DNA of 64,000 nucleotides from Thalassia testudinum. Lineage: Eukaryota > Streptophyta > Magnoliopsida > Alismatales > Hydrocharitaceae. The position numbers were made by a program, and so were the translations under genes. The stretch lies in contig JAZHRO010000062.1 of assembly GCA_037157565.1 (NCBI GenBank), positions 5,084,001 to 5,148,000 of the forward strand, given 5' to 3'. Numbering within the stretch: the stretch's first letter is position 1; every line of letters begins with the position of its first letter. This document shows positions 15,879 through 52,473 of the stretch, piece after piece. The notes under the pieces were generated by a model that saw only the letters and a program-made list of their open reading frames with translations, ran no database searches and was not told the DNA's origin.

Positions 15879-15940
15879 GGCACAACCTCTTACAAGACAT
15901 CTTCTCTTTATACACCTGACCAAGAGAAGAATAATAATGG

Positions 15941-21344: not shown

Positions 21345-21671
21345 TGGAAAGGAGACCTCCTAAGCAACAAAAATTGGGGAAGAAGCAAAACCAAGTTCAG
21401 ATGATTTGCGAGGAAGACTTGATTGCCTTGTTGGAGGAAGCAGAGGTGGCCCCTCGGTCATCTACTATGGCGATCCAATTATATCCTAACATAGCTCACA
21501 AGCTCGTCTAGGTTGGGGCATATCTTAACCCCCCAAAGGTTCATGATTTACTACTCCTATTGCAAGCTAACACAAAATATTCGCTTGGTTCGCCAACAAT
21601 TTATCGAGAGTAGAACCTTCAATAATTGAGCATCGATTGAATATTCAGTCATGTTGCTTGTCCGATAAAGC

Positions 21672-23435: not shown

Positions 23436-26182
23436 TGATGGGAATACCAACATGAGCCTTAACTAGCTCATTTTAACCCAATGAAGAGAATAAATGCTCC
23501 TACATAATCGACTAAAGGTCATAATTCACTACATAACCTTTTTGAGAGGAAAATAAAAAACTAGGGTTAAAACTGTAATTTTACCATTGTAGTACAACGA
23601 CGGGTTTTCTTAAGGGCTAAACAAAGGTCAAATGGTCTTAATAAGATAACAAGTGTGTTGAATTTGACAGAAAAGGGTTTGTGTGTGTTCTATGAATTAA
23701 ATGACTTCTTGAAACCCTAAAACAGACCCACTTGATTAACCAAGGTTCTAGTCATGATAAAATTAACTTAAACCTTTTAAAAATCATAAAAAAATATCCT
23801 CTAAAGTTTACTACTTTCAATTTGGTCATTGGAACCCATTTTGACCTAGATTGAGGTCTCAGATAGACATTTACCCTAAATTAGGTTTTTGCATAAATTA
23901 TCCAATCAAACGTGGTCAAACACAAAATTTAACTTCACCATTGGATTCCTTAGGTCCAAATTAGGTTAATACCAAAATTTGGACCTAAGGGGAACTCATC
24001 TTGACCTACTTTGCAAAAAGGTCCAATCTGATTACATTTCTACCCCTAACTTTCAAAAATCCTTGCATTTAACCCCTAACTTCTTCTTCATCTTTGCAAA
24101 TAGGTCCCTCCACCATTATAACGGAGGAATTCTACTCTAGCGAGCTCTAAAAGGAGATTTCTCCATGACTGCTCAGAGAATCCCTTTAAAAATTGGAAGG
24201 GAGATTCTCTGAGTAATCCCCTCCAATCTGAACCCATTTGTGATCCATGATTATTTCACAATCTCTTATGTGAATGCATGAAAGATTTGGGTCACTTTTG
24301 AGTTTCCATCTCCGGCGAAGCCGCCTTGCTTGGAAGCTTGGCTTCCAAGCACGAAACCTCTCCAGAGACCAATTTAAGACTCCTCAGATCCAACCGAGTC
24401 TCCTCAATTTGAAATTAGGCCGGATTTCCTCCATTCTTCTCTCCCTTCCAGCCACAACAACTCCGCAAGCTCCGGCAGTTTCTCCCTCGCTCTCTCGTCG
24501 CCCAACCACAATACCAGTGGTCGGGTTGTCTTCCTCTCAGTCCTCCATGTCACGCAACACCGGCCGACGTCGCCTCTGCCATATCTTCGCCGCCGTTTCA
24601 CCTACGAAGGTATTCGTCTTCCCCATGTCCGGCGACCATACCGACATGGGATTCCCTTTCCTTTTGTCCTTAGATTAGGTTTATTAGATTCCCTCTCTCT
24701 TCCACTTTCTTTCCTCCTCTTTATTTCTCAAAAACACCCACCGACGCCACTAACCACCGTCACCTTCTCCACCTCCGGCGATACATTCGGCGAGGTGCTC
24801 CCGTCACTCCTCACCTCCATAACCTTGCCGACCACCCTACAACCTCTGCCTCGACTCCCTGATTATATCCCCTCACTCCAATCTCTCCATCGACCACCCA
24901 AACACTCCATCGAACATACCCACACATACGCACATAGTGAACCCTGGACATGCCACCCCAGCCACCTTCGCTCCTCGCCACGACAACCATGACATTCGCC
25001 ATGCCACGGTTACCATGCTTAACGTCCTTATGCGGCCATAAGGCCCTTGTTCTTGATTTCAGGTATCCAGCCACCGGCCGCCATTACTGCCAAGCTTGAA
25101 GCTACGCTCCAGGCGTTGCTGCTCTAGGTGATAGTCCTAGGCAATGCGGACTTGAGGTGTGCATACATCCAGGCTCTCAGTTGGAGTCGAATGCCCTTGC
25201 AGCCTCACCAATTGAGGAAGCCATCTACCGATGCAACGTGCGGAAGAAGGTTGGACATTTAGTCCCACCTCGGAAAAGGAAAGACACCCTTGTGCGCATA
25301 AAAGGATTTTGTGTTAGAGGCTTATCACCTCCAACACTTAGGGTGAGGTCCTCCTCCCCCCCTCTCACAGACTCGTCCGTGGCACTGCCCACGAAGACCT
25401 AGCCATGGTCGATTACTCGACCTGTTCACTCGCTCACCACACACACCGGTGAGCCTGGACCTGGGTCTCCATTAGGTCCAATTACCCGACCGATTAAAGG
25501 CTCTGGGAGAGCGATTTTGAAATAGAGAAGAGAGAAAGAGAAAAGAGCTATGCCGAGGAAGGGGAGTTTTGCCTTGGAGAGTTTAGCTTGACACTTAATC
25601 GAATTCAGAGAGTGCTGCAGGGCTTAAGGCAAAGAAGAAGTGAAGGCAGACGATAGAGAAAGAGAAAACGAAGAGAAGGCCAAAGGCAGAGAAAGAAGGA
25701 AGGAGAAGATAGAGAAAGCTAAAGAAAGAAAGAAGAGAAAGAAGAAGAGGGCTTGCAAAGGCAACGGAAGAGAAGGGCCAGAGAAGAAGGAACCAAAGAC
25801 AGAGAAAGAAGAAGAGAAGGCAGAAGAAGCCAAAGGAAGAAGAAGAAGAATCGAGAAAGAGAAATCAAAGCAAGGCATTGTAGCACAATACTTTTAAGAT
25901 GTCAGATTGCAAAATCAGACGTCCAATTTTCATAAGTTCTCCATTATTTTATCTACAATTATTTTTACTCTTCATATACACATGCTTTACACTCCTAATT
26001 AGATTTTGAGTAGTATTATGTGTTCAATTGACATTTATTGTTGAGATTAGTGTGTCAATTCCATTTACTCCCTGTGTTCGACCTCGGAATATATTCGAGT
26101 AATAAAATTGTATTTGTTTTGAACGCTATTTCGGTTATACTACAACGCAACACTCTTAAACACCGATTCAGCGCTCTCAACA
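23436..26182 (+). mobile_element. LTR d1 inserted between Tat RNase H and integrase
   Basis: A 2747-bp unit beginning tgatgggaata and ending gctctcaaca. It is flanked by ctacg (23431-23435) and ctaca (26183-26187), a 5-bp duplication with one CpG-type change. Its left 850 bp align with d2 (37414 on), through blocks such as aaatgctcctacata and taggtccc. Its right end shares ttactccc...gacctc...actacaac with d2 (51890-52071). The interior includes a C-rich promoter-like part, a purine-rich stretch and one GATGTC/GACGTC pair. No coding domain is present, so it is a solo LTR, probably Gypsy. Confidence 0.8.
25505..25875. repeat. purine-rich low-complexity tract
   Basis: About 370 bp of nearly pure A/G (gaga, gaag, aaag runs) inside LTR d1. 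The open frames here are artefacts of composition. Confidence 0.85.
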
Positions 26183-32340: not shown

Positions 32341-34910
32341 CTTATCAAATCTTTCTAGTCCCTAGCAAATGCATTACTAAATGCAAAGTGATCGTATATG
32401 ACAGATTTCTTATCAAGAGTTCGATTAGAGATTTATTTCTTTTTGTTTTCATCCAAGACTTTAGAAATCCAGGCAATCGTAAATGTATATTATTGTAGCC
32501 TATGCAACGGATCCAAATGAAGAGCCAATCCATATCTAAAGTTCGTACTTGACCCTTAGTAAAATTCTATTGGGATAGGGAAACTTCTTCCCTCGATGTA
32601 AAGTTATCTGTAAATTCACCCCCGGCTTTTGGCTTAGGTAGAAGATACTTTGGGTCTAGTGGATTTATATTTGGTGGCTCATACTCATCTGGTGCTACAT
32701 ATAGACTGGTACTTTAGAACCTAGATTTTCATATTATTAAATAAATCAACTCAAAGAGAGGCAGAGAAATAGTGCTCTCTTTAGTTCCTTTGTACTCATT
32801 TTCTCTCTTTCTCTTTCTTTTTTTTTCTTTTTCTTCTTTTTTCTCTTTTCTTTTCTTTCTTTTCGAGCTCATAATCTCACCAGATTTATCAATATATTTG
32901 GTGATCTCTCCTAACATTAACACTTTGATTAGGTTCTATAAACCTATGACTAAGTCAGAATTCCTTAGCCAATACTCAAGCGGCTAGAAATACAAAAAAG
33001 TAGGTTAAGGATGTATTTGGTGGATCGTGAGGGTAGTAGGTGTTGTTTCCTTAATATACTTAAAACAAATTTTAAACTCATAAACTTATTTTTTTTCTAC
33101 TCTTTTATTTTTCTAATTTTTTATATGTATATATATATATATATTTTTCTCTCTTCTTTTCTCTCTTTTTCACATCCGTATATCTACTAACGCAACGCTG
33201 TATAGTATACGAACTTTTATTTACGAGGCATTATCCGGGATTGGGGATGTTCAAGAGGATATCGGGTGGCTTATTTGTTAGAAGTGCCTACTCTCGGCAC
33301 CGGGAAAGGAATGGATAAGACAACGTATTTTTGACATTGACACTAATACCCTCCTTCAGCCGAGAATTCCGTAAAGGATAGTTGTGACCATCCACCTCAG
33401 TCCTAATTTTATCAGAACTCGCTCTCTGCCTATGTGCTTTATTTGATCACTCTCAAAAGATTTGCACTAATAATTTATATGTAGAAACTGAGAGCGAAAA
33501 ACAATGCCTAACTTCGAATATCATTATCTAATTATCCATAATGCAAAATTCCTTATACTAGCCTTAGAGCACCAATAGACTTTCTACTCTCACCTCACAC
33601 TTGTTTGGTGGATCTGCTAGAAGATAGTTTACCGACTCCCTAATTACTGTCCAAGAGCTCAGGAGAAGAAGCATTGTTTATTCCCGACAAACTAAAGATG
33701 TCTATTGGCCTTCACAGAGGATCCATTACAAATTCTACGTATAAGTGTGAAATTGTACTGGATTCTAAACTTAGGAATCAACTTAAAAATAAATCCCTAA
33801 TAAAACATTTTTGATAAAAAAATCTTTATGCTTAAAGGCAATTTTGTTTTCTAACATAAAAATAAGATATGCAATGTCCACCCCCTATGCCTATTCTTTA
33901 CAATGTCCTCATTGAAATGTATGTAGGAAAATCAAAAAGTAATGAGCAAGAGGAGGGGATGTCACCTAACTGAACTTGTTATTCCAAGTCAGCTTGGATG
34001 CAAAAGTACCTGTAAAGAGTACTGGGTTGTCTCCCAGCCAGCGCTAAGTTTAACGTCATTTGCCGGACTTAAACCCAAAAGAAATATGTAATTCAATATT
34101 TTGGGTCAAGAGAAGGAATGATGACTGTCGCTAAGAGATTCAAAATTGATATAAAAATATGATCGTTTTGTCCAAGAATTGGTGATCTACAATGCAGACC
34201 AACTGATGATGTAGTCCTACTCCGAAGAGTTTTTCTTATTTGAGATAGACAATAGGGTTAGATAGATGAGGTTCATGAAGCAAAGCCTGTTCATTAATCC
34301 AGTTCCATAATTCAAGAAGTAGTGGTAGAGAGCCTAGATTGAAATCATGATTGAGGTCTAAATCTGGTTCTGAATCAGAATGATAAGGATCCTCATAATG
34401 GTAGTTGATGTCAAAAATCATGAATTCTCCAAGGTCATATGAGGACAAAGGTAGAGTTGTGCTCTTAAGAGGCAGCAGGTTGGTTGAAGACATTATACAC
34501 TCAATTAACAACCTTCTTAAGGAGTTCCACCAATCATTTTTTCTCTATTTGTTGACATCTACTAAATTTGTATTAGTAAGGGTATATATGGTTAGCTTTG
34601 CCTTGCTTACTGTACCACTTCCGATAATTGTAGCTGCCTTATTTTTCGATAATCATTGGACCAAAGATTCCAGAAGCACTTCCAATGAAAAGCAAAACCT
34701 ACTATGGATGGGTCAAGGAATGTTTAGTTAAAGAACTATGTGCTTGTTTGGGTTACACTCTCGTTTATAGTTGTTCTCATCTTCTACTTTAATTTGGGTT
34801 CTCCATATTCCTCTTCTCAATTGGTAGAAAAAGGTGATGATTGCACCCTTCAATTGGCTTGTGTCTCATGTCTATCAATTACCCATAGGCATCAATTGTC
34901 TTGATCTCTA
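32341..34910. other. retrotransposon internal remains, mostly noncoding
   Basis: AT-rich sequence with a CT-rich run near 32800-32860 and a second near 33150. A 91-codon minus frame at 34236-34511 and a plus frame at 34405-34731 show no motif that I recognise. The only marker I trust is the Athila-like block listed next. Confidence 0.4.
33990..34075 (-). other. Athila-like post-pol signature
   Basis: On the minus strand this reads aaatgacgttaaacttagcg then ctggctgggagacaaccc. Athila-type Gypsy elements carry the same kind of block (taagcgcttgttgggaggcaaccca) just after pol. It suggests a minus-strand Athila remnant around 31270-34100. Confidence 0.5.
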
Positions 34911-35724: not shown

Positions 35725-36070
35725 TAGGGGGAGATAAAACTTATATGTTGTATGTCTAACATTAAAAGGGAGATAGAAAAATATTTCTTATATGTTTGGA
35801 TTTTATTAAAAAGGGGGAGATTTTAAAAATGAATATAACTATATTTCTACTAGAAAGGAGGAGTTAACGGATAAAATGAATAGCTATCTTATTTTGAGAA
35901 AAGTGGGAGAATGTTGTTCTTATTTTATTTTATCAAAAAGGAGAATTAACCCAAATCAGAACAACACGTATTAAGTTTTAGTATAGGATAAATGATTAAA
36001 ATTAATTAAACTTTTTTGATAATGTCAAAAGGGGAGAGAATTTGACATCATTAAAAAAGGGGAGATTATT
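35725..36070 (+). other. multiple polypurine-tract-like motifs before LTR b3
   Basis: Repeated A/G runs (tagggggagataaa, aaaaagggggagat, gaaaggaggag, aaaaggggagaga, aaaaaaggggagat) lie within 350 bp directly before the LTR start at 36071. The last one is the likely plus-strand primer. Minus-strand element c shows the same layout, so it is a family trait. Confidence 0.7.
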
Positions 36071-37413
36071 TGTGTAAGGGCACTACAATTGTTAATTTGA
36101 TGATAAAAAACACTTGGTATTTAACATTTGCATTTGAGTTTAAGCTTTTAGGATAAATGTAAATGGATTCAAGTGTGAAGGAGCTCAAGCTTGCGTCCAT
36201 GGCGAATTGGAGGAGCTTGATGGAGGAAGAACTAAAGACGAAGCTTTGTGTGGAGCGAAAGCATGTAGACATGAAGAATATGATAGATAATTGTCTTTCA
36301 TGTATTTTGTATTTGTCTTATTGCACTTTGCTCTTTTATTTTCTTAGATCAATGTAAAGAGCCCAAAGTACCTTACCTTAGTCCTGGGAACACTAATCCA
36401 TCGCTAGGACTCTTAGATGAACACTTAGGCATTTCATAGAGAACTTAAAAAATAAAAATAGGCTTCAGACAACCAAATAAGACGTCCAATCTGGACTTCT
36501 AACATTTGATCTTAGACTTTAAGATGTATAATAGTTTGTACAGACGTTTAAATACTTAGGCTGAAAACACAAAGTTTGCAACCATTCTTTTAGACGACCA
36601 GCCCATAATCCAGATAACTTACAAGACATCTGTTGACCTTGCCAGACGTCGGACTAGAGGACCATTGGCCTATTAGACAAACATCTTCGAGGATTGACCT
36701 ATGATTGTATTAATAATATTAATCAGACGTTCGTAGAGATTCCTAGACGTCTAATAAATAGACGTTAGCCTAAATTTGACCAAAATCTACTTTTGTCATA
36801 TGATTATTGCCATTAGCCTCTCGGGAAATCCATTCCCGCAGCAAATTCTCTTTCTAGACACTTTGTCAGACGTCCAACCTGTCGTCTTACCTAAAATACC
36901 TAGAACCCTGTTTAGATATGGATAAAATAAAAACACACCCATCTTAAAATTAGACATCTGATATCTTATCCAAATATCTTAAAATGATCTGTTAGACGTC
37001 CGTCTAGATCCAACCTAGTCCAGGATCATCAACCCTTCTAGAGCAGACATCCGACCTTTAGATCAGACGATGACCCAGACATCTGACCATAAATTCAGAT
37101 GTTCGAAAACCATGTCAGACATTTTAATGACCCTGATTTCAGTGGGATTTTGGACCACTCTCTTGAGCCTTGTTCCCAACGGCTATAAGAGCCTTCCAAA
37201 CCCTTCTAGGCACCTTTATAAAAAGAGGAACACCCTTCCTTGGCCAAACACACCTGAAGAAATCATTTCCACATTTATTTGTGTCCAAGAGAAGAAAGAA
37301 ATCACTTAGAAGAATATCTTGCTCTCCAAGTTCTACATTGCAAATCTGAGAGTACCAAAACTTTATCGATTTTACACCGATTCTCTTCCGTTTTAGGGAA
37401 GTCCTTGCCTATA
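36071..37413 (+). mobile_element. 3' LTR b3, left part
   Basis: Starts tgtgtaagggcac. It aligns with b1 and b2 through gatgataa, ggattcaagtg, gaattggaggagcttgatgga and the TATA region (about 37217). An MSA-like box is at 37175. The GACGTC array is heavily decayed but pairs such as 36523/36543, 36625/36645 and 36726/36746 keep the 20-bp spacing. It is cut at 37413 by LTR d2 and resumes at 52077. The two parts total 1740 bp, equal to b1 (1732) and b2 (1714) within a few bases. Confidence 0.88.
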
Positions 37414-38585
37414 TGATTATAACATCATCACGAGCTATAACTAGCTTTAATTAATCAAAATCAAGTGACAAATGCTCCTACATAGTCGCCCGACAGTCGT
37501 AATTCCTTGCATATCCTTTCTAAGAGGAATACATTAAATCAAGGTTAACTCTGCAGTTTTAACAGCACATTATGAAAGCAAAATGATCACAGGATTTCCC
37601 AAGGATTAATCTAAGGTCTATAGAGCATTAAAGTCTAATAAGAGGGTCCACATAGACAGAAACAAGATTTCACGCATTTCAAGAACTGATACATCACCTA
37701 AAATCCTAATTTTAGACCCACTTGAATTATATAGGTTTTGGTTAGGATAAAATTCATCTAAACCTTATAAAATTAATAGAAAAATATTTCATGGGATTTG
37801 GTACCCTTGATTTGACCTTTGGAACCTATTTAGACCTCGAATAGAGTCATAGACACAATTCTACTCTAATTTGGGTTTCTACACAAATTTCCTAGTCAAA
37901 CTTGGTCAAAACTCAAATCTGACTTCACCATTAGATTTTTTGGGTCAAATTAGGTTTGTGCCAAAATTTGGGCCCAATCAGAGATCATCTTGACCAAGTT
38001 TCATTTTAGTCCAGTAAGACTCATTCTCTCTCACATACGCCCCTAGCTTTTGAAATCCTTGCATTCAGGTCCATAGGTTTTTCGTCATCTTTGCAGTTAG
38101 GTCCCTTCCACCATTAGTGTGAACAGAAGCTTCACCATTGAGATTCGAGCGGGGATTTCTCGTTCGATTCTCAACCAAACACTTCTAAAATTGAAAAGGA
38201 GATTCCTTGAGGAATTCTCTTCCAAATGAACCTGGCCATAGACCTTGATTCCTTCTCAATCTCTCATGTGAACGCTTGGAAGATGCAGGTATCCTATGTG
38301 CACAAAATTCTCGAAACTTGAAAGCTTCTTTCCTTGCTTGGGAATGTCTCCTAAGGCCTATAAAAGAGCAGGAAATGCAATTCCGCTCTTCCTTAGTCAC
38401 GTTTAAGCCCAAAATAAGTCTTCTCCTTCAACTCCGGCTAGCTTTAACCTCGACTCCGGTGGCCCTCTCCCCCGTCCTCCTGTGGCCTCCCAACCATCAA
38501 ATTGGGAGTGTTAAAACTCTTCCTTACGCTTATCCACGCCTAATGGGCCAAAGCCAGGGCTTCTAACCCCTTTCGTCGCGCCGTC
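37414..38585 (+). mobile_element. LTR d2, left part
   Basis: Begins tgattataacatc after ctata (37409-37413). It aligns with the left part of d1 over more than 800 bp. It stops at 38585 where element c starts. The right end of d2 is at 51797-52071, followed by a second ctata (52072-52076). Confidence 0.85.
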
Positions 38586-39923
38586 TGTAGGATCTGTAAA
38601 GCATAAGCACACTAGAAGGGGGATGAATAGTGTGATATATAAAAATTTGCAAGAATAATAAACCATAAAAAAACATAAGATATATAGTGGTTCCCCTCAC
38701 TTGGGTACTCCACTACTTAGGTCTTCCGACTTAGGATTTTTAACCCGATTCCCTCAACTCGAAGCGAATCAATTTATTAATACCTGAGGTAATTAACAGG
38801 TTACCTCAACCCAATTACAAGATATCAAAAGGAAATAAAGATACATGTGTAAGCAAGATGCAAATAAAAGCTTACAACAAATTCCTAAGTCTCCAACAAG
38901 TGGATATCTTAATAGATGATAATATACTAATATAATAAAATCAGACTAAAATGAAAGATAATATGATAAAGCGAGATCGCCTGAAAGATGTTTGTTGAGA
39001 GAGTGTTGCCTTGAAGGATGCAACAAAACAATAGACCTTGCAGGTAGAAATGTGAAATCTAGGAATTAGGAGCAAGGAGACAATATTTTGTTGTTGTGTA
39101 CAAATGGCACACAAGGTGTTTATATAAGCCACTAAACACCTTCCCTACAATTACTAGCCATTAGGGGTAATTTGGGAAGATTAGAGATAGGTTTAATTGC
39201 AAAATAGCCGTTCAAATTGGTTACAACAGTTAGTTGGTATCAGTACTAAACTTTTGATACTGGTACTGACTGCCTACAGTCAGGCCAACTAAGTCACTAG
39301 GTACCGGTACTAATGATGAGTACCGATACTTGTGACTCACAGATTTGGGTCCAGTGACCTACTTGTACCGGTACTAGTGATTAGTACCGGTACTTGTAAG
39401 GTCCAGTCAAAACCAAGTGCACAATCTGTGACCACTTGGCACCAGTACTTACGATGAGTATCGATACTTGTTCACAGTTTGGGACTTAGGCCCAAACTTG
39501 TGCCTAGCATGTACCAATACTTATGACCAATATCGATAATTGCTACAAGTACCTAATATTGTAAGTGTAAGTTAATTTTTAGAGTTATCCCATCTACTTT
39601 ATACGACATTATTTTGAAAGAATCGAATTTGAGCTTTGAAACGAATGAATGAACGATATTCTGAACCCTAATTATCTCTACTTTGATTTTAATTCCTAGA
39701 TTATGTTTACTTGTTAGGAGACACACAAAGATTCTACACAAAGCTTCTAAAATACAATGAATACAACAAAAGCTATAGTCTTCTAGCCTTCTTCCTTCAT
39801 ATGCTATCTTGTTGCTTGCATCCGCAGATTCTTTTGACCTGTAATAATGAATAAACACATTAGATTTTAAAACGGTTTTGTTAACACCAAAACACAGAAA
39901 AGAGATGGAACTAGGTTCTAACA
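38586..39923 (-). mobile_element. 3' LTR of element c, 1338 bp
   Basis: On the plus strand it runs from tgtaggatctg to ggttctaaca. The minus strand therefore starts TGTTAGAACC and ends CCTACA. The outer 460 bp match 51338-51796. A TATA box (tatataaac on the minus strand) is at about 39117-39132. The GTACCGGTAC array lies at 39237-39540 upstream of it in element orientation. On the other side is a purine tract (AAAAAGGGGGAGAT). Confidence 0.93.
39237..39540 (-). repeat. U3 array of paired GTACCGGTAC palindromes in LTR c
   Basis: Ten-base sites start at 39237/39257, 39301/39320, 39365/39384, 39439/39458 and 39511/39530. Four of the five pairs are spaced exactly 19 bp and one 20. Intact sites read GTACCGGTAC and the others differ mainly at the central CpG. 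The array lies about 105 bp before the TATA box. Confidence 0.9.
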
Positions 39924-40110
39924 ATCTCCCCCTTTTTGGTGTTGACAAAACAAACAAGATACTCATATTTAAAAATAAACAGAGACTTAATAAGAGAAAA
40001 ATAAAAAACTCCACAAGGAGTAAAAAACCTCCCCCTCAAACTAAGCTCTCCCTATTTTAAATATGAAGTATCCAATCATTTCTCTCCCTTTTTGTCAAGC
40101 AAGTAAAAAT
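39924..40110 (-). other. polypurine tracts before the 3' LTR of element c
   Basis: On the minus strand there are runs AAAAAGGGGGAGAT at the LTR edge and GAGGGGGAGG near 40030. A third, AAAAAGGGAGAGA, lies near 40085. Several tracts ahead of the 3' LTR match the layout before LTR b3. Confidence 0.75.
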
Positions 40111-40907
40111 ATGAGCAAATAATACATTTTTAAGTAATCAAAGCATGATACATGAACAACCAGCTCTATTCAACTTTCATAAAAGCTAAACATGATAAAG
40201 TTAATAAAGATAAAGCTTGAGACAATTTTAGCAAAGCCACACAGAAGAAATCTTAAAAGTCATACAAGTTTAACATGCAACAAAATGAAAACTAAACTAA
40301 TTTCTAGAATGTTTTCTAATAAGCTTTTGTACATGTCCACCATCATCATCGTCGTCGTCGTCATCGTCATCATCGTTGTCATCATCATCTTCATCTTCAT
40401 CATCACTATCTTCATATGAAACTTCTTCATCTTCAGTTCTTCTTCTTCATCATGAAGAATAGGTTCTTCTTCCGCCACTGAAGATGAAACATGAGATGGG
40501 TCTTGAAAGTGCTTTTTCCTTCTTTCACTGTATTCTTGAGGTGCTTTCGGTTGAGTTCGCTTATTTTGTTTAGGTTGTTGAGTGGAAGGAGTGACATGGG
40601 AGGACTCAATAGAAAGAGAAAGGTCATGAAATTTGCATTTCATGTGATGGAAGGCAAAATTGAGATTGGTTAAATTTTGACCAATGTAATTGAAAGTATT
40701 TATTAAATTGGAATCAGTTCCAAACACATTTGACAGATTTACCCAAGGTGTTTCAACTTTTGGGTATGGGTAGGTTATAGGAACGAAGGTGGAGGATGAT
40801 TCACGAGGTGGATGAGAAGAAGATTGAGCATTTGAATCAACTTCTTCATCATTACTAGAGGATTCCTCTTTAGGAAGTTTCACTCCCATTTTTTGGAGAG
40901 TGGACCA

Positions 40908-42621
40908 TGTTGGTGCTAGAGCACCACGATCATTTGTTTTGATGATAACAAAACACGTGTTATTTAACATTTGCACTTTGAGTCCTAGATTTCAGGTCAA
41001 TTGCAAATGTAGACGTGCTTAAACGGAGTTCGAGCTCGCATCCAGGACGGATTGGAGGAGCTTGACGGAAAACAGAGGAGGTTCGCGTGGAGCGATAGAA
41101 TGAAGTAGAAGACAAGAAGAATAGGATAGATTCTTTTTAATCCTTTCATGTATCTCTTGTCTTTATTTTATTGCTCTTTATTTCCTTAGAAAATTATGTC
41201 AAAGAGCCTCAAAGTACCCTAACAGTAGTCCTAGGAACACCGGCACAACCGTAGGATACTTAGGTTTTCTGTAGAACACTTAGAAAACCAAACCAATATA
41301 GGGTTCAAACAGAGTTTCCAGACGTCTAATTCCCAAATCAGACGTCTTATAAAGTATTTTAAGACGTCTAACTGTTGATTCAGACGTCTGATAACTATTA
41401 GGCTGGACATAGTTAGTTCTGTCTGATGAAATCAGACGTCCAGACCTTAGACCAGACGTCTTAGGAGACGTCTGATGACTTTGCCAGACGTCCAATTAGT
41501 GGACCGTTGGCTGACTTTGCAAACAATATAGAATATGACCGTTAGAGCCTCATCAGACGTCCATAGGACTTTCCAGACGTCTGATAATTGACCGTTTTGC
41601 CTCGGCTGACCCAAAATCTCTTCTCAGAGATTTTTTAGCCGTTGCAACGTTTGGAAATCCATTCCCACATAAAAAGTAGGTTTCCAGACGTCCAGACATA
41701 GTGACAGACGTCCTATATGTCGTCTGATGGACTTGCACAAGAACCCTGTTTAGATCTGATTCAAGTCAGGAAGAGATCCGCCCAAAATCAGACGTCTGAC
41801 CTTGGAATCAGACGTCTTAAAGTGAACTTCCAGACGTCTGATGCCAGAATTAGACGTCTGATTAGCCTGCCAGTGCAATGATTGTTCCTGATTTCAGGCT
41901 GATTCTCTTGGGCTTTGCACCCAACCGCTATAGAACCCTTCCTAAGCCTTCCAAAGCCTTCCTAAGGCCTCTATAAATAGTGGGGAACCTTTGCAACACA
42001 AATACACACCTAGAAACACCAAGACACACCTTGCAATATACTTTCAAACCTTTTTGTGTCTCTCTTGCTCTCTAAGCTCAAGTTCTACATCTTGAGAGCA
42101 TCAAGTTGTTGCGCACCCGCTCTCCCGCCGTTGTTCACGAGAGCGAAGTTGCGCCGTCGCGTGGTACACGCATCCGCGTCGTCGACGCACTCCTTTCAAA
42201 GGGAAGCATCCTATTTCCTATAGAAGCTAGGTTTAAAATTACTTTGTTGGCTCTATGAGACTTGTTGTTTATTTTATCTTTGTTATTTGGTTGGGTATTC
42301 GCTTTGCGAATTCCCGTCTCCTTCGCGAGACAAAATCCTTCTCGTGGAGAGAAGGGGTTGAGGTACGCTACCCTCGTCTAAGTAGCGTGGTTGTATTGAG
42401 GTTGAATCACCCTCGTTTAAAGCGATTCGGTTTAGTGGATTTTGATCAACTTGGTTGATCGGAAAATCCTAACTCGAGAGGGTTAGGTGGTGGTTTTCAC
42501 CCGGTTTGGGTTTCCACCTAAAAATACTTGTGTACTTTGTGTGATTGCTTATTTGTGAGATTATTTATATTTTCATTTCCGCAATTATTACGTCACCCCC
42601 TCCTAGTAGGGCGAACTTTCA
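40908..42621 (+). mobile_element. solo LTR b2, 1714 bp
   Basis: Starts tgttggtgctagagcacc and ends gggcgaactttca. It is flanked by a perfect gacca duplication (40903-40907 and 42622-42626) and inserted in the env-like ORF of element c. It is the best preserved b copy: all 16 GACGTC sites are intact. TATA is at 41972. The downstream hairpins are at 42297, 42365 and 42404. It opposes element c in orientation. Confidence 0.95.
41321..41858 (+). repeat. U3 array: eight GACGTC pairs with 20-bp spacing
   Basis: GACGTC starts at 41321/41341, 41363/41383, 41435/41455, 41467/41487, 41556/41576, 41687/41707, 41791/41811 and 41833/41853. Every pair is exactly 20 bp apart, while gaps between pairs vary from 12 to 111 bp. 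The common form is CAGACGTCY-N11-CAGACGTC. The sequence between the two sites differs from pair to pair. The array ends 114 bp before the TATA box. Confidence 0.97.
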
Positions 42622-43481
42622 GACCATTTGAAATAGACCACTTTTCTAAGAGTAGTAAAATTAGATAGGTCAATTTTATTTTTATGAAGAATGTGAGACA
42701 CCAAAATATCCAATAACAAAGCTGATGCACGGTAATGGGGTTTAAGAAAATGAGTGAAAACTGTGTTCCAATTTACCAGAAAGCTTGTAATGATAGCATA
42801 AATTAAGGGTAAAATATAAATAGGAATTTTACGGAATCCTAAATTTTTAGCCCTTAAGTTCCATGCTAAGATACGAAAAAGAACACGAGCAAATAGAGTC
42901 ATGTTTGGGGCAACCAATGCTTTGCCCTGGTAGTTAGGGAGCAAGAGAGTTTTATGGATTTTATGAGTAAGAAATTGCTCATTAAGTGTGTTAAATGCAT
43001 GACCTTCATTAAGACATTCAGTAATGGTTAACAAGAATTTGGATGTGATGGTGATTTTCTGACCAAAAATATTTGTTTTTAAGTCAAGGTGACCTCGATT
43101 TTCTTGCTCTTGGAGGTTAGCAAAGAATAGATAATTGACATCAGGGTATACTCTAGGAACATCGACAAAAAATGATTCATAAAAGAAATGCATGAGTTTT
43201 TGTTCGGGAAGACATGTGGTAAAATTAAAGAGTTGAAGAGAGAAATCTTTTCACTCAACTAGCCTACAATAATGAAGTTTTAGGCCTTTATATCAATCAA
43301 ACTTCGACCTAGCATCCCCATTGATGCAAAACTTGTGAAAAACATTTTTAGGTGCTTTTCCTTTACTCTTAGATTTAGGTGCCATATGAAAACATGCAAT
43401 AACAAGGAATAGGAATACGATTATAAATATAGAAAACTTCATTTCATGTGTTTGTACAAAAAAAAACATTTAAGCCTGCAT

Positions 43482-43638
43482 GTATCGGTACTAGTGATTG
43501 GTACCGGTATTGGTTGGTTTCTATTTCAACCAGAAATTCGAGCTAGTACCGGTATTCATATTCAATACCGATACCTACTCACTAATGCAGGTACTGCTGT
43601 GCCTAGCTAGTACCAATACCAGTGATGGGTATCGGTAC
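43482..43638 (-). repeat. internal GTACCGGTAC pair array in element c
   Basis: Pairs start at 43482/43501, 43546/43565 and 43610/43629, all 19 bp apart, with the same motif as LTR c. It lies outside the LTR, between RNase H and the env-like ORF. A TATAAA-like sequence occurs on the minus strand near 43732. Confidence 0.88.
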
Positions 43639-44059
43639 CATCTGGTACCCGACATGAAGAGGCTCTTGTGAAGAGAACTAGGGTTTGCAAGTGACAAAAT
43701 GAGGCAAGTGTTTGCACTTGGCCTCTTTTATATGGCATGGGTCATGTGCTAGTCACATGACCACTTAAGTAGTTGAGAGAAATGAAATTGACAACTTAGG
43801 TGTTGAAAAAATAATGTAGTCAACAACGTAAGTTAAGCAACCATATTGCAAACAACACCCTAATATTTTCAGACATATGAAAATATTACAATTTACCCCT
43901 TTTTTTAGCAAGCATGGGTAAATTACAGTGAGGCCCTCATGGATTTTTATAAATACAAACAAATAACATATCAATCAAATTATTAGTTTTGAATCTCTTT
44001 TATTGTGCAAAGTCCTAATTTTCTTCTTATAAAGTAGAATCTCTCTGGTGCAAGAGGTT

Positions 44060-44402
44060 TTGTAAAGATGTCTGCCAATTAGTTTTGTGTGTCAATGAAT
44101 TTAATTGAATTGAACCTTGAAGCACATTATCTCTAAGGAAATGATGTCTAACATCTATGTGCTTGATACGTGAATGATGTACTAGATTTTTAGATAAATT
44201 TATTGTGCTTGTATTATCACATAAAATTTTGGATTACGTAAAAATCAATCCAAAGTCGGACAAAGTCTGTCTCATCCAAATGACCTAAGAGCAAGCAAGT
44301 GAAGCAGTAATATACTCTGCTTCAGTCGTAGAAAGTGAAACACAAGTATGTTTCTTAGAGAACCATGAGACCAGAGATTCGCCAATAAAATCACATGTGC
44401 CG
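44060..44402 (-). pseudogene. Copia RNase H, second part
   Basis: The minus strand reads GESLVSWFSKKHTCVSLSTTEAEYITAS, the Copia RNase H core with the conserved STTEAEY. It continues WMRQTLSDFG and the CDNTSTINLSKN block, then KHIDVRHHFLRD. A premature stop interrupts after LACS. The N-terminal part of this domain lies at 47193-47280, separated by a solo LTR. Confidence 0.88.
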
Positions 44403-44407
44403 CTAGT

Positions 44408-47187
44408 TGTTAAGACCCGTGCTGTTTGAGCCTTTTAAGACGTCTGGACTGTGGGTCAGACATCTGGACACCTTCCCAGACGTCTGGAAATAAAAAATTT
44501 TGAGTACGAGCTTACGTCTGCGCACGGGCTGTGTGCAGACAGTACTCTTGTTTTCCTCATTCTCTCTCTCTTTTTCCCCCCTCCAGCTAACCCTAACCCC
44601 AACCTTATAAAACCCCCTCCTCATCTCTCGTTCTCCTCACTTCATAGCCACCAGTTGCTTCTGCCCTTCCCCTTCACCCCAGCGCGAGCGAGTGAGCGCG
44701 ACAACGGCTTCGAGGAGTGGAGTGAGGAGAGGTGGAGAGTGAGCTCGCAAGCTCGTGTGGGGGCTCACGAGGAGCGCATGGCCGGAGTGGCGTGCGCACA
44801 AAGAGGAGTGCGTCAGGGGAGTCCTCCCCGACATTACTGCAGCCGGAGCTGCAGGCGTGGCGCGACCATGCACGCGCGCGGGCGAGCGGAAGTAGGTTCT
44901 GATTTTCAATTTTTCCCAGAATCAGACGTCTGGAGTGACGTCCATACGACGATGCGAACGTCTATGGGTAGTTCCAGAATCTGAGGAGAGAGTTTCGCGA
45001 TGGTACGTTCTCTTTAAGGATACGGCCATGCAGGCCGCTCTGCGGGTGCCCTTTTGCGTACCTATTTTGAGGAGATTTGGTGGATTTCGTGCAGGATTTG
45101 CTTTGGGAAGGCACGGGGCACGCCCGCCCACGCATTTTAGACGTCTAGGCGACGTACCAAACGGTTGGAAGCACTTCCTGACGTCCGGAGGTGGTCGGAC
45201 GACTGGAGTTGGGTCCAGACGGTCCAGAAGAGTTCCTGGATGTCTGGGGTGGACGCAGACTGAGGTACGATACTGGACACTTTTTAGACATTTGGAAGTT
45301 GTTTCAGACGTCTAATTTTACATCAGTAACCCTGTTTTGACCCGTTTAGGGTTCGTTTGAGGTCCGTGTTACACAAATAAGATACTGATGTGTTCCTTGT
45401 GAGTTCCTCTATTTGTTATAAGCCTTTCCATACTATTCTGATAGTTCCCTTGTGGTTGTTCCTTGTTATAGGACTTCGTTCCGTTGCAAGTTCGGGACTT
45501 GCTAAGGCACGTGAGCCTGCCGTTTAAGCCCCCAATACTCCTGGGTTTACTGGTAGAATGGCTTACCCTAATTTAATTACAAACCTGAATGCATGTGTGC
45601 AATGAATGATTTGAACCTAGGATATGGCATGAATCCTAGGACAAGAAATACTGGAAATGTCTGTATTTGATGAATGAATTGCAGTCTTGAATGAGTAGAT
45701 AGAAATGATAACAAATGCCTATAAATGAATAACATTTGCCTGTGAAATATGAAGTACTTGTGCTAGTTAACTGTTGCATGTAACTTTCCTGTTGTATACG
45801 TTAAATGACATAATACGAGCTGCATGTATATAAATTGGGAATGGTAATGTGAATGACGGAAATACGAGCTACCTGTGTACAACCTGAGTATGGAAATGTG
45901 AATGATAGCAATACAAGTTGCATATGTATAACCTAAGAATGGAAATAGAAATGATGAAACCTGGTATGGCATGGCATGAGGAATATGAGCATGAACCTTA
46001 CGGGGAATTAGGAGTAGAGCTCCTGGAAATAAATGGAATGGATCTGGAAATGTTAGTGGGGAAGTGAGCTGGCCCTTGAGTACGGAGTACTAAGGAGAGC
46101 AACTGTCCCCCTGTTTAGTGCAGAGCGGAGCTAGCCACTCTTGGGTTTGGACCTGGGGTTAGGATTGGCCACTCTGTACTGACTTCTTAGCCCTCGCGTA
46201 CATGGTACGGAGGAGAGCTACTAGTGTAGGGAGAGAGCTAGCCACCCCACGGGGCCCGGGGTTTAGCTAGCCGCCCTACACCGACTTGTTAGGCCCACTA
46301 GGCAAACCAAGGTAGTCAGGCGAGGGTGCGCGGACTGTGGAGGAGCGAGACCCCTGTTTGGTTCTTACGGGCTAGACCCCTGTTATTAAGAGGGCTAGGC
46401 CCTATACTGTTCCGTGCTATACTTTCGGCGCACTCGTTAGCGGAAACAATTGACCGCGTGCCCGCGCGGGGTAGCTACTCGTGCGCTTATCGTGCGTATC
46501 GTAGTCACCGTTACGTCTGTCCGTGACCTTGGGGTGGTTGATTGGCTGTAGGATCACCACGGGGGACTCTCCCGGCCAGGAGAGCACCATGTGTGCTTTC
46601 TACTCTTCGGAAAAGACTGAAATCAAGATCGTTCCCACGAGAAACATTCAAGATCAAGAAAGAGATCTGATAAATAAACCAATGGATGAAAATGAATAAA
46701 TTGTGAAATAAAGTAAATGAAATAAATAACTACCTGTCCACTTTTACTACTTTAGTTAGTTGATTGCCACTCTACTCAGCGTTCGCTGACTTTGTGTACT
46801 CATAACCCTTTTCAGATCCAGGTGTTGAGCAGCCAGAGTCTACGACTGCAGAGGGTGCTGGATACAGTAGAGCCCAGTAGCTGTAGTTCTTTTGTTGTAC
46901 TCCTTTGGTAGTAGTGAGTAGACTCTTATTCCTTTATGTTCTATACTTTTACGTTATGTACTTTATGTTCCTATACCTTGTTACTTTCCGATGTTGTAGT
47001 GGTGATATGTACTGTACCTGTTTTTACTTCTTTACTGCTGTACCTTTTTGCTGTTAGTTGCATAGCATAGTGAATGTGGTTTACTTTCCTGCTTTTTGGT
47101 TATTTCTCGTTGGATGACTGGGTCTTGGGATCAGTCGAGTCGGTCTGGTCTCATGTCCTGTAGGGATTCGGGAACCGAGTCGTAACA
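44408..47187 (+). mobile_element. solo LTR, Gypsy-like, 2780 bp, in RNase H
   Basis: Starts tgttaagacccg and ends gagtcgtaaca. It is flanked by perfect ctagt duplications (44403-44407 and 47188-47192). The insertion splits the Copia RNase H right after the DRKST motif. A TATA box (tataaaa) is at 44607. It is GC-rich at 44640-45250 and has no coding domains. TGTTA/TAACA ends and length suggest a Gypsy LTR. Plus or minus orientation is inferred from the TATA box. It contains GACGTC pairs like those of LTR b. Confidence 0.93.
44439..45312 (+). repeat. GACGTC sites in the Gypsy-like solo LTR
   Basis: Hexamers start at 44439, 44459 (gacatc) and 44479, each 20 bp apart. Later ones are at 44925, 44937, 44957 (aacgtc), 45140, 45180, 45198 (gacgac), 45218, 45239 (gatgtc), 45287 (gacatt) and 45307. 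Steps of about 20 bp recur. The first trio lies about 125 bp before TATA; the others lie after it. Confidence 0.75.
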
Positions 47188-47192
47188 CTAGT

Positions 47193-48115
47193 GCTCTTTC
47201 GATCTATGCAACTCCCTACATAGTCTACATCACCAAAGGATAATAAATATAAGGTTTGTGCATTAGGATAGAAAAGACCAAGATCTTTTGTGCTGTTTAG
47301 GTATCTAAATCTTCTTTTTACTGCATTAAAACGAGATTCCTTGGGTTTGGATTGGAATCTCACACATAAACATGTAGCAAAAAGAATATCAGGTCTAGAA
47401 GCTGTAAGATATAGCAGTGAACTTATCATGCCCCGGTATTTCTTTTCATCTACCCTATTGCTGGATAAATCTTTACCAAGAGAAGTAGATAGAGCAATCG
47501 GAGTCTCTTTACCATTTACATTTTCAAAGTCAAATTTCTCGAGAATTTCAATAACATATTTTGTTTGACTAATGTAAATTCTTGTGTCTAATTGTTGAAT
47601 TTGGAGTTCTAAAAAGAATCTGAGTTCATCTATCATACTCATTTCAAACTCAGTCTTCATAGTTTCACAGAAATGTTGACACAGAGACTCCTTAGTTAAT
47701 CCAAATATAATATCGTCGACATATATTTAAACCAGTAGATGTCATTTTCTTATTCTTTTACAAAAAGAGTTGAATCAACAACTCCAATTCTAAATTCGTG
47801 CTGAAGAAGAAAGGTCCTAAGCCTATCATACCAGGCCCTGGGAGCTTGTTTAAGTCCATATAACGCCTTATTGAGCTTATATAAATGCTCTGGGTGTGCT
47901 GAGTCCTCGAACCCGAGAGGCTGATGAACATAAACTTCCTTAATATAACCATTAAGAAAGGTGCTCTTGACATCTATTTGATATAGCTTGAAGTCCTTTG
48001 CACTTGCAAAGGTAAGTTGCATCCGTATGGACTCCAAGCGAGCAACATGAGCATATGTCTCATCAAAGTCCATACCCTCTTGTTGGTTGTAGCCTTGAGA
48101 TAAAGTCTGGCTTTA
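47193..48115 (-). pseudogene. Copia reverse transcriptase and start of RNase H (element c)
   Basis: The minus strand has GMDFDETYAHVARLESIRMQ and YQIDVKSTFLNGYIKEVYVHQPLGFED. It then reads LYKLNKALYGLKQAPRAWYDRL. The catalytic block reads YVDDIIFG at about 47730-47705, intact, although a stop precedes it. After that come LQIQQLDTRIYISQTKY, KYRGMISSLLYLTASRPDILFA and KRRFRYLNSTKDLGL, and the RNase H start DVDYVGSCIDRKST. Stops and frameshifts are few, so element c is fairly young. Confidence 0.9.
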
Positions 48116-48390
48116 TTCCTGATCACTGAACCAGATTCATTTAATTGTTTTCAGAACACCCACTTGGTTCCAATGATGGAATTGCCCTCAGGAGCGGGTA
48201 CCAAGTTTCATGCATTGTTCCTTGTAAATTGGAGTAGCTCCTTCTGCATAGCTATAACCCATGACTTATCCTTTATTGGCTCATCAACTTTCTTGGGTTC
48301 AAGTTGAGAAACAAAGGCATTAAGGACAAAATCAACTTTAAAGTGAGATTGGATTTTTACACCTTATTTAATATCACCTATGATGTGTTC

Positions 48391-49330
48391 TTAAGGGTGA
48401 TCCTTATGGTGTACCCATTCTTTTGGAAGATCATGTACATTTCGTGTATCTTCCATTTTTGATACATCGATGAAGGGGGTATCTTCATCATCAGAATCTA
48501 AATAATTTGGTTCAGGTTCACCTAAGTTTATTTCATCAAATGAAACATGCAGGGATTCTTCTATAACGAAAGTTCTTTTATTAAATACTCGATAAGCTTT
48601 ACTTCTTGTTGAATAGCCAATACAGATGCCTTCATCACCTTTAGCATCACACTTATCAAGCCGATCATGGGTGTTTAATAAATAACATCGACTTCCAAAC
48701 ACCCTAAAATATGAAATGCTAGGAGACTTCTCATAATAAAGCTCACATGGAGTTTTCTTAATAATAGGTCTTAAGAGAGTTTTATTAAGAACATAACATA
48801 CTGTATTAATGGTTTCCGCCTAGAAATATTTTTGAAGCCCAGACTGCAAGAGCAAAGTTCAGGCGCATTCTTGTAGAGTACGATTCTTGCGCTCTACAAC
48901 ACCATTTTGAGATGGTGCCCGTGGAATTGAAAATTTATGGGTTATGCCAGAATTGACACAAAAACTTGAAAATTTTCATTTTCAAGTTCACCGCCCTGAT
49001 CAGTCCTAAGTCTAAGAATTAAGGATGATTTTTCCTTTTGAAGTCTTCGAGCAAGACTTAGGAATGAATCAAATGAGTCATCCTTATGTTTCAAGAAGAT
49101 GACCCAAGTGAACCTAGAGAAGTCATCAACAATAATTAGGCAAAATTTTGATCCATTTAGACTCTCGAATCGTGCTGGTTCAAATAGATCAAGGTGTAAC
49201 AACTCTAAAGGTCGTGTTGTTGAAACTAAATCTTTAGGTTTAAAAGAAGCCTTGTGCATTTTTTCGAGTTCACAAGACTTGCACAAAACATCCTTTTTCT
49301 AAGTTAGTTTGGGTAGACCCCTTACTAACT
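48391..49330 (-). pseudogene. Copia integrase (element c)
   Basis: Read on the minus strand: the paired cysteines of the zinc-binding domain (CKSCELEKMHKASF), then LELLHLDLFEPARFESLNGSKFCLIIVDDFSRFTWV with the first catalytic Asp. Then FKIL-type spacing leads to LRTDQGGELENENF with the second Asp. The glutamate region after 48940 is broken by frameshifts. The C-terminal part at 48702-48391 (MFGSRCYLLNTHDRLDKCDAKGDEGICIGYSTRSKAYRVFN) is well preserved. Confidence 0.9.
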
Positions 49331-49499
49331 CATTTTTGGCTAACCTATTAAGATGTTTGTGATTAATGTGACATAGCCTACGATGCCAAAGATCTACTTC
49401 AACATGGGAGGCAAGCAGACATTTTACAAATTTCTCTTATGAAAAATGAAGAGCATAGATATTCTCATACCTAAAGCCTTCAATTAAAATCGTATTTAT

Positions 49500-49800
49500 T
49501 TTTTATTTTAATATTTTAAATCCAACTTTAGTAAACAAAACATCACATCCATCATCACATATTTGACTAACACTAAGCAAGTTATGTTTTAAGTTTTCTA
49601 CTAAAAGAACATCACGTACCTGTTTAGAAGAATTACATATTGTACCTTCACTAATAATGCGACAACGTTTGTTGTTGCCCAACTTGACGTGACCTCCATC
49701 TTCGATTCTGGTCCACTTGATAAAGAGGTCAGAGTGTCCCGTTATGTGCTTGGAACACGCACTGTCTAGGGTCCATTTGTCCTTTTTGACTTGCAAAATA
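49500..49800 (-). pseudogene. Copia protease / pre-integrase (element c)
   Basis: The minus strand reads KDKWTLDSACSKHITGHSDLFI. The D-S-A triad is the Copia protease active site. It runs on into GGHVKLGNNKRCRIISEGTICN, then KHNLLSVSQICDDGCDVLF, the pre-integrase region. No stop interrupts this 97-codon stretch, although flanking sequence is broken. Confidence 0.87.
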
Positions 49801-49989
49801 ATTTATTAAATCTATTTTAGGTACCCATTTTCTTTTGGGTCCTTGATGGTTAGTACCCTTTAAATCCTTAGGTTTATAGATCACCTTAGTGTTAGACCTA
49901 TAATTCTTAGGATTCTTGAGCTTTTGATAAATCCATACATGCTTAGGTTCATGTGATTTATTTTGTGTGTCCTTTTTATTATTGAACTT

Positions 49990-51286
49990 GGCTTTTAAAT
50001 TATTTCAAAATTCAGTATTCACCCTACTTGTTGTTTTTAGATTATTCAAAGTGCCCTCGAAGTGTTCATAAATATCTTCTAATTCTACTATTTTTGCATG
50101 TAATTGATTGTTTGTTTCTTTTGACATTTCTAATTCTATTTCTAAACAAGATTTTTCTATTTCTAGAGTTTTATAACTATCATGCACGACCTTATTTTCT
50201 TTTTTAATCAACCTAGCTTTGTGATTCAAATCTTCATATGCTTGTAATAATTCATTAAAAGTGACTTCAGAATCTACCTCATTTTTTGAGTTGTCGTTGT
50301 TAGCCGTTAAGCAAAGATGTGCAATTTCCATTTCTTCGGAAGATGATTCCATGCTGGAATCACTATCATCCCAAGTCGCCTTGTTTGCCTTTCTTGAAAT
50401 CTTCTTCTGATCAAGTTCTTTGTCCTTCTTCTTTTCTTCCTTCTTCTTCTTGATCATTAGACAATCTTTTCGTACGTGTCCCTTCTTCTTACACTCAAAA
50501 CAAATAATGTCATTTGTAAATTTATTGACTTTCTTACCTTATTTTCGGATGAATCTTCTCGTTAGAAGAGCAAGCTCTTCTTCTTCGTTGGAGTTGGAAT
50601 CGTCGAAGTTCGACTCCTTTATTGCTTTGAAAGCAAGTTCCTTCTTCTTGCTTACCGATTTTTCTTCATTCTTCTTCATATTTTCCAATTAGACTTCATA
50701 CACCATGAGACTTCTAATCAAGTCATCTAAGGAGAGAGTAGAGAGGTCTTTCGCCTCTTGGATGGATGTGGATTTTGGAGACTAATCGCTTGTAAGGGAT
50801 CTCAAGATCTTCCTTACAAGCTGCTCCTCCTTCAGCTTGACTACAAGGTTCTTCATTGGATTCACGATCTCTCTAAATCTTGTGTACATCTCATTGATTG
50901 TTTCATCTTTCTGCATCCTGAAATACTCATAGCTTTATGTTATAATAGAAATATGTGTTTCTTTTACCTTGTACTTTCATAGGTGACTTGCAGCGTGTTC
51001 CATATCTCGTATGCAGATTCACATGCGAAGATACGGTTAAATTCTTCCCTTGATAATGCATCGCTTTTGCATTTCCTGCGATCTTTTTCTTTTGGTCCGA
51101 GGTCCAAACAACACCTTCCTGTGGCTTCGGATACGTGTATTTCTCTTGAATGAGAGTCCACGAGTCCTCATCCATGGCCTTGAGGAAGATTTGCATCCTC
51201 CTCTTCCAGTATCCATAGTCTGTCCCATCAAGGTAAGGAGGACGTGTGAATGACTATCCTTCAGTGCGCTTGACTGATGATGCCAT
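49990..51286 (-). pseudogene. SIRE-type gag (element c)
   Basis: ATG at 51286 (MASSVKRTEG) is followed by a stop. The frame resumes with RPPYLDGTDYGYWKRRMQIFLKAMDEDSWTLIQ, the usual SIRE gag N-terminus. UBN2 parts follow in shifted frames (GKNLTVSSHVN and ACESAYEIWNTLQVTYES). A zinc knuckle of the CX2CX4HX4C type (CFECKKKGHVRKDC) lies on the minus strand at about 50500-50460. A lysine-rich segment and coiled coil follow (50457-50005). Confidence 0.87.
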
Positions 51287-51320
51287 TGGGAGAGAGAAGG
51301 ATTACTTCTTCTATTCGCAA

Positions 51321-51335
51321 CTCGCTTTGATACCA
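51321..51335 (-). other. initiator-Met tRNA primer-binding site of element c
   Basis: On the minus strand TGGTATCAAAGCGAG starts two bases after the 5' LTR end. The plant iMet site is TGGTATCAGAGC, so this is the usual primer for Copia. Confidence 0.9.
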
Positions 51336-51337
51336 CC

Positions 51338-51796
51338 TGTAGGATCTGTAAAGCACAAACACACTAGAAGGGGGGATGAATAGTGTGGTAGATAAAAATT
51401 TGCAGGAATAACAAACCATAAAAGAAACACAAGATATAAAGTGATTCCCCTCACTTTGGTACTCCACTACCTAAGTCTCCCGACTTAGGATTTTTAACGC
51501 GATTCCCTCAACCCGGAGGGAATCAATTTACTAATACTTAAGGTAATTAACGGGTTACCTCAACCCAATTACAAGATATCAAAAAGAAATAAAGATACAG
51601 GTGTAACCAAGATGCAAATAAAAACTTACAATAAATTCCTAAGTCTCCAACGAGTGGATATTTTAATAGATGATAATATACCAATCTAATGAAATCAGAC
51701 TAAAACGAAAGATAATACGATAAAGCATGAGATTGCCTGAAAGATGTTTGTTGAGAGAGTGTCGCCTTGAAGGATGCAACAAAACAATAAGCCTTG
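51338..51796 (-). mobile_element. 5' LTR of element c, truncated
   Basis: Begins tgtaggatctg on the plus strand. It follows the 3' LTR closely for 460 bp and then diverges at about 51796. Lost sequence includes its U3 array and TATA box, so this copy could not promote transcription. Confidence 0.9.
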
Positions 51797-52071: not shown

Positions 52072-52076
52072 CTATA

Positions 52077-52473
52077 GTAGCATAGCTTTATCCCTACTTT
52101 ATGGCTCTATAGGTATTTGTTTTTGCTTTTGTTTTTGGAAGGGTATTCGCTTTGCGAATTCTCGTCTCTTTTGCGAGATAAAATACTCCTTGTGAAGAGA
52201 AGGGGATTGAGGTACGCTACCATCGGTTCAAACTAACGTGGTTATAAGAGGTTGAACTACCTTCGTTTAAGTAGTTCGTTAGTAGATTTAATCTGCTAGG
52301 TAAATAGAGAAATCCTAAATCAAGAGATTTGGGTGGTGGTTTTTACCCGGATTTGGGTTCCTACCTAAAAATCCATTGTGCCATTTGTGAGATTGGTTAT
52401 TTGTAATTGTTGATTTATATTCCACATAATTTATTTATCACATTTGATATCACCACCTTCGTTAGAACCTACA
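52077..52473 (+). mobile_element. LTR b3, right part
   Basis: Resumes LTR b3 after d2. It contains the conserved hairpin ATTCGCTTTGCGAAT at 52145-52159. The perfect 7-bp stem GAACTAC/GTAGTTC lies at 52254-52277. It ends acctaca, like b1 (atttaca). Together with 36071-37413 it makes a full-length b LTR. Confidence 0.87.

Follow-up and report, generated by a model that had tools for sequence, protein, structure and literature searches.

Strict 20-bp pairing of GACGTC boxes upstream of the TATA box in a solo LTR from Thalassia testudinum

Why would an LTR hold sixteen copies of one palindromic hexamer, each with a partner exactly 20 bp away? The question is posed by LTR B2, a 1,714-bp solo LTR that we read as Sirevirus-type (40908–42621, plus strand), which has TG...CA ends and is flanked by the TSD GACCA (40903–40907 and 42622–42626). 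It lies in a 64,000-nucleotide stretch of Thalassia testudinum DNA, hereafter the window.

Sixteen boxes in eight pairs

The box array occupies 41321–41858 of the plus strand and comprises 16 GACGTC hexamers, with the box consensus YCAGACGTCYNA. They form eight pairs (41321–41346, 41363–41388, 41435–41460, 41467–41492, 41556–41581, 41687–41712, 41791–41816 and 41833–41858), each spaced 20 bp start to start. The array begins 413 bp into the LTR, spans 538 bp and stops 114 bp before the TATA box (~41972). Our analysis reproduced the figures of an earlier sequence-only reading, namely the 16 hexamers, the eight pairs at 20 bp, the gaps of 22, 52, 12, 69, 111, 84 and 22 bp between pairs and the distance to the TATA box. 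The second box of pair 3 lies 12 bp before pair 4, which yields a 20-12-20 module, and pair 6 is followed at +12 by a degenerate box, GTCGTC, that is common to B2 (41719) and its relatives LTR A (14955) and LTR C (36881).

The window contains 40 GACGTC hexamers against 3.96 expected, a number reached in 0 of 100 shuffles. When 16 sites were scattered at random over 538 bp in 20,000 trials, no trial had more than six pairs sharing one spacing (range 6–60 bp), and none reached the eight observed. A chance origin of the pairing is ruled out by these two controls. Arrays of the hexamer are also present in LTR A (14147–15878), LTR C (from ~36067) and LTR D (44408–47187).

The unit CAGACGTCY that had been proposed for the boxes holds in part: every box carries A at −1 and Y at +7 (16/16), and the left CA is limited to 13/16. 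The mirror-image TG on the right occurs in 6/16 boxes as opposed to 13/16 for the left CA (Fisher p 0.029). LTR A has a similar imbalance, with the left CA in 11 and the right TG in 3 of its 16 boxes, as does LTR C with 10 and 4 of 18. We therefore describe the box as a near-palindrome, whose lean has one direction in all family copies. By eye, the LTR D boxes have no left/right lean (4 and 5 of 10).

The inner 10 bp of the linkers are 28% identical between B2 pairs, compared with 26% by chance, so the pairs are not copies of a 46-bp unit. Over the full 14 bp, identity rises to 39%, against 26% for random 14-mers from the LTR, an excess that we ascribe to the linker ends, which we take to belong to the box. 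The array is indeed no simple tandem repeat, as had been claimed: TRF returned no array in 41321–41858, and the inner linkers are at chance level. Random spacing in relatives and conserved linkers in a copied unit had been named as outcomes that would count against the pairing; among the copies examined, neither was seen, as both relatives hold 20 bp and the linkers are unconserved.

For the two sites of one pair, which at 20 bp lie close to two turns apart, it is plausible that they face the same side, as had been suggested; helical phasing from pair to pair along the array was not significant (p 0.23). The repeated-motif arrays of Sireviruses, discussed below, are described as CpG islands; here the CpG observed/expected ratio is 0.89 in the array (44% GC) versus 0.55 in the window, and the rest of the LTR is similar to the array (0.94 and 0.85).

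Related LTRs and Sirevirus-type features

The family comparison rests on three copies (B2, A and C), all from the one 64-kb window. LTR A (14147–15878, plus strand; TSD GGCAC) is a second solo LTR of the B2 family, 80% identical to B2, in which all eight aligned pairs are spaced 20 bp (14558–15094) and 8/16 boxes read GACGTC. LTR C (36067–37428, plus strand; start inferred and 3′ coordinate provisional) is a more distant relative, 67% identical to B2 over ~600 bp. Of its eight aligned pairs, seven have the 20-bp spacing and one is shortened by 8 bp to 12, and 4/16 aligned boxes read GACGTC; an extra pair specific to C, at 20 bp (37046/37066), was picked by eye. The gaps between pairs are also largely retained among the related LTRs.

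In each of the three comparisons, identity within the array is highest in the boxes, and the LTR beyond the array comes close to them. Between B2 and A, identity is 0.885 in boxes, 0.723 in linkers, 0.780 between pairs and 0.839 outside the array; the corresponding values are 0.771, 0.606, 0.560 and 0.713 for B2 and C, and 0.698, 0.577, 0.557 and 0.699 for A and C. Among the 32 boxes of A and C, 20 are altered, and 15 of these 20 have lost the CpG (6/8 in A, 9/12 in C). LTR A retains the CpG in 10/16 boxes versus 11/22 other CpGs of its aligned part, which gives no sign of box protection after insertion. This decay pattern suggests that the box CpG was probably methylated and lost once a copy had been silenced.

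Several features point to a Sirevirus-type family. The TATA box CTATAAATA follows the array in both B2 (41971–41979) and A (15207), ~61–62% along the LTR (62% in B2), and thus sits mid-LTR as in Sireviruses. A C-rich stretch, CACCCCCTCC, lies, by eye, 18 bp from the LTR end in B2 (42594–42603) and 15 bp from it in A. It resembles the Sirevirus integrase signal, described with a 19-bp consensus at a mean distance of 21 bp from that end (PMC2829016). LTR C alone is preceded by several polypurine tracts of the Sirevirus kind (35726–36066, plus strand), where AGGGGGAG is intact at 35726 and 35812 and decayed at 36030 and 36058. With seven plus-strand and three minus-strand occurrences in the window, the octamer is no rarity, so that these tracts amount to moderate evidence. 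The LTR C junction reads AAGGGGAG-AT-TA; compared with the Sirevirus AT/TG attachment site, the AT is present and the TG mutated.

In Sireviruses, an inverted repeat is described as spanning the junction of the polypurine tract and the 3′ LTR, its right arm lying on average 28 bp inside the LTR (PMC2829016). At the LTR C junction, such a repeat matches at 11/15 bases (by eye and uncontrolled), with the right arm ~29 bp inside. B2 has the right arm, TTTTGATGATAA, at 40937, 29 bp inside, and lacks the left arm, being a solo LTR. LTRs A and B2 are both solo, with no internal domain, and the primer-binding site TATCAGAGC was found on neither strand of the window. From these LTR features, the B2 family is best read as Sirevirus-type Ty1/copia.

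B2 and LTR D seem to have inserted into a degraded minus-strand copia element (38585–51796), in which we detected an RVT_2 piece (Pfam), a zinc-knuckle piece below cut-off, an integrase-like piece by eye and AGGGGGAG octamers at 40029 and 39926. Two segments, 38585–39040 and 51337–51796, are 91% alike and may be the LTRs of this element. A protein search with its reverse transcriptase piece gave 2335 matches; the two best of the 120 listed are 85% and 79% identical, and the listed matches that carry an organism label all come from flowering plants, with identity peaking at 58%. A reverse transcriptase piece had no related locus in IMG/VR. A relic at 52072–52458 is 76–77% like the R-U5 of B2 and A and has no exact GACGTC nearby.

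Elsewhere in the window, an open reading frame (34405–34728) matches Gaa1, a GPI transamidase component (Pfam E 7.3e-18), and is probably a host-gene exon ~1.3 kb upstream of LTR C. Fragments of another retroelement lie at 21669–23386 (plus strand), with RT_RNaseH_2 above its cut-off and RVT_1 and RVT_3 below theirs. Direct duplications occupy 5793–6056 (129-bp unit, 95% matches) and 15939–16348 (204-bp unit, 98%).

Palindromic box arrays are already published for Sirevirus LTRs as the "repeated motif" (RM), which starts 200–400 bp into the LTR, runs for 300–500 bp and precedes the TATA box (Bousios et al. 2010, PMC2829016). The B2 array shares with RMs its many CpG-bearing palindromic boxes in at least eight copies (16 here), its place in the upper half of the LTR before a mid-LTR TATA box and its family-specific sequence, whereas its start and span lie slightly beyond the published ranges. 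It differs from the Sirevirus RM core, CGG...CCG, in its own core CAGACGTCY and in the strict pairing of its boxes at 20 bp. Published examples are GTCGGACGTCCGAC in Usier and CGGACCGTCCG in HOPIE (PMC2829016); the inner part of the Usier box, CGGACGTCCG, would become the B2 palindrome CAGACGTCTG through a single symmetric substitution, CGG to CAG, of the kind that CpG decay is expected to produce. Because the CGG...CCG signature is missing from the B2 boxes, we call the array RM-like and not a canonical RM, although Tnd-1, one of the 13 published RMs, also lacks the signature (PMC2829016).

A word search of the main text of PMC2829016 turned up no box-to-box spacing, and the titles and abstract openings listed in our search contain no report of 20-bp paired palindromes in an LTR, although a spacing rule may have been published elsewhere. 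The B2 array differs from the published ones in its core sequence and its fixed 20-bp pairing.

Binding, folding and history as possible explanations of the spacing

The reading we favour, with confidence a little above even, is that the array is an RM-like regulatory enhancer in U3 before the TATA box, composed of eight units of paired sites for cooperatively binding dimers of a host factor. Each near-palindromic box would be the putative site of one dimeric DNA-binding protein. With the centres of a pair 20 bp, or ~two turns, apart, two boxes would share one face of the helix as a double site, to which two dimers, or a tetramer, may bind cooperatively. Eight such double sites would make a strong enhancer of element transcription, activation being the effect we infer. 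The plant C-box core GACGTC suggests that the binding protein is probably encoded by the host; the parts of the Sirevirus literature examined name no protein that reads such arrays.

GACGTC is the plant C-box, which HY5 is reported to bind in EMSA (PMC6914869), and a bZIP protein is therefore a candidate reader. The B2 boxes resemble the C-box and as-1/ocs elements in their ACGT-core palindrome and their paired sites, and differ in their A..T flanks. The as-1/ocs elements are paired ACGT elements; the as-1 spacing is 12 bp as compared with 20 bp within B2 pairs, although 12 bp does occur between pairs 3 and 4. Many plant bZIPs prefer the flank TGACGTCA, and since the B2 flank is A/T (AGACGTCT), the bZIP assignment is weak.

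The sequence-only reading had left the choice between a bipartite protein-binding module and a hairpin-forming one. Bipartite binding is the best fit to the exact spacing, the free linkers, the position before the TATA box and the retention in relatives, whereas the hairpin is real as a fold but does not account for the spacing. That the boxes act as a single-stranded structure, with the U3 RNA (or DNA) folding into a long imperfect hairpin, either useful to the element or processed by the host into small RNAs as has been suggested for the palindromes of maize Sireviruses, is in our view unlikely, strong as the fold is. The B2 array RNA folds at −211.7 kcal/mol (z −14.0 and −15.7 in two runs against dinucleotide shuffles). 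It still folds better than sequences shuffled everywhere but in the boxes (z −5.2 for boxes taken as 8-mers, −3.8 as 12-mers) or with the pair units permuted (−2.0; 60 shuffles each), so sequence context adds to the fold. The other arrays also fold (z −6.3 for A, −3.7 for C, −3.8 and −1.6 for the second and first clusters of D), all eight pairs can self-fold locally (−7.0 to −18.9 kcal/mol, uncontrolled), and palindromes of maize Sireviruses are described as small-RNA hotspots (PMC5311732, PMC10760457). Yet negative z scores extend outside the array, to the 5′ part of the LTR (−4.8) and R-U5 (−2.7), and the predicted structure joins the leading four boxes to the final four instead of to their 20-bp partners. 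Moreover, length changes of 1–3 bp left the energy at −213.3 kcal/mol when made within pairs and −212.4 when made between them (60 trials each). As fold energy is indifferent to length changes inside pairs, the hairpin alone does not explain the 20-bp spacing, and this length-jitter control rules it out as the cause. The array fold may nonetheless matter, by analogy with maize Sireviruses; it does not demand 20 bp.

The spacing could instead record history: one 46-bp pair would have been copied within the LTR, its boxes kept by selection or chance and its spacing functionless. The arrangement in A, B2 and C is common by descent, and the spacing is thus not independent evidence in each. The two end modules of the B2 array have an identical 20-22-20 layout, and in LTR A TRF reports a 20-bp tandem unit of 2.4 copies at 15025–15073, covering two or three boxes, which fits a duplication origin at that spot. 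However, TRF detects no such array in the B2 interval, and the inner linkers of the B2 pairs are saturated, yet no pair has changed in length where ~6–8 changes would be expected from the indel rate of these LTRs (one unconstrained ancestor; rough star model). We regard this as a stronger argument than the indel counts between LTRs, with 0/208 columns affected within pairs versus 9/836 elsewhere (p 0.14) and 1/200 versus 21/807 (p 0.05), which are suggestive only and not significant by themselves. We consider a purely historical origin improbable.

Least probable, and very unlikely in our estimate, is that the boxes are targets of a mobile-element protein comparable to VANC. The VANC proteins of VANDAL transposons counteract silencing: they occupy closely packed copies of a short motif, and DNA methylation is lost as a result (PMC5735166). 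As in VANC targets, a short motif specific to the family recurs at high density in non-coding regions of a plant mobile element, here with a CpG in each box, and just as VANC6 motifs extend to AT9TSD1, unrelated to VANDAL (PMC5735166), LTR D shares the box. VANDAL elements differ in being DNA transposons with their own binding protein, whose motif, YAGTATTAY, is non-palindromic and often lies in recognisable tandem repeats (PMC5735166), whereas the linkers here are unrelated; the word "spacing" is absent from the main text of that study. No candidate protein is known for the boxes; A and B2 are solo LTRs, to which no element genes are attached.

Pairs outside the B2 family

RM boxes are stated to be exclusive to Sireviruses (PMC2829016). 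Similar boxes are present in LTR D, a solo LTR (44408–47187, plus strand; TSD CTAGT) whose ends give the impression of a Ty3-like element. Its boxes at 20 bp, some with 1–2 mismatches, lie at 44439/44459/44479, 44937/44957 and 45287/45307; the first three are upstream of the likely TATA box and the others downstream. Allowing up to two mismatches, the whole LTR holds 20 boxes and the first kilobase 13, among which four pairs are at 20 bp. Under free placement, four pairs have p 5e-5 at 20 bp and 7e-4 over spacings of 8–60 bp; with the boxes held in two clusters, these values become 1.5e-4 and 0.006. A sensitive comparison of LTR D with B2 returned short matches only, the best being 35 bp (E 0.004). 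As this match covers a box pair, exchange of a pair is possible instead of reinvention. The LTR D pairs are a first hint that 20-bp pairs were gained independently.

Outside the four LTRs, 190 boxes with up to two mismatches form four loose pairs at 20 bp (0.64 expected). By eye, the sole real-looking one is a lone GATGTC/GACGTC pair at 25898–25923. A scan of IMG/VR for AGACGTC-N13-AGACGTC returned 49 stretches, 48 with one match and one (L006) with two overlapping matches; two GACGTC pairs at 20 bp were present in 2/49 (L019 and L036).

It is a doubtful but specific proposal that a single host factor reads 20-bp CAGACGTC pairs in unrelated LTR families, the Sirevirus-type B2 family and LTR D, as a shared code acquired independently or by exchange.

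Should cooperative binding to the B2 pairs hold, the strict spacing of two turns, combined with unconstrained linkers, would imply a reader that engages duplex DNA as a pair of coupled dimers, a constraint that leaves fewer candidate proteins. Dependence on the spacing would separate the enhancer from the hairpin or small-RNA explanation. If unrelated elements do use the same pair, this would point to a host factor exploited by several retrotransposons.
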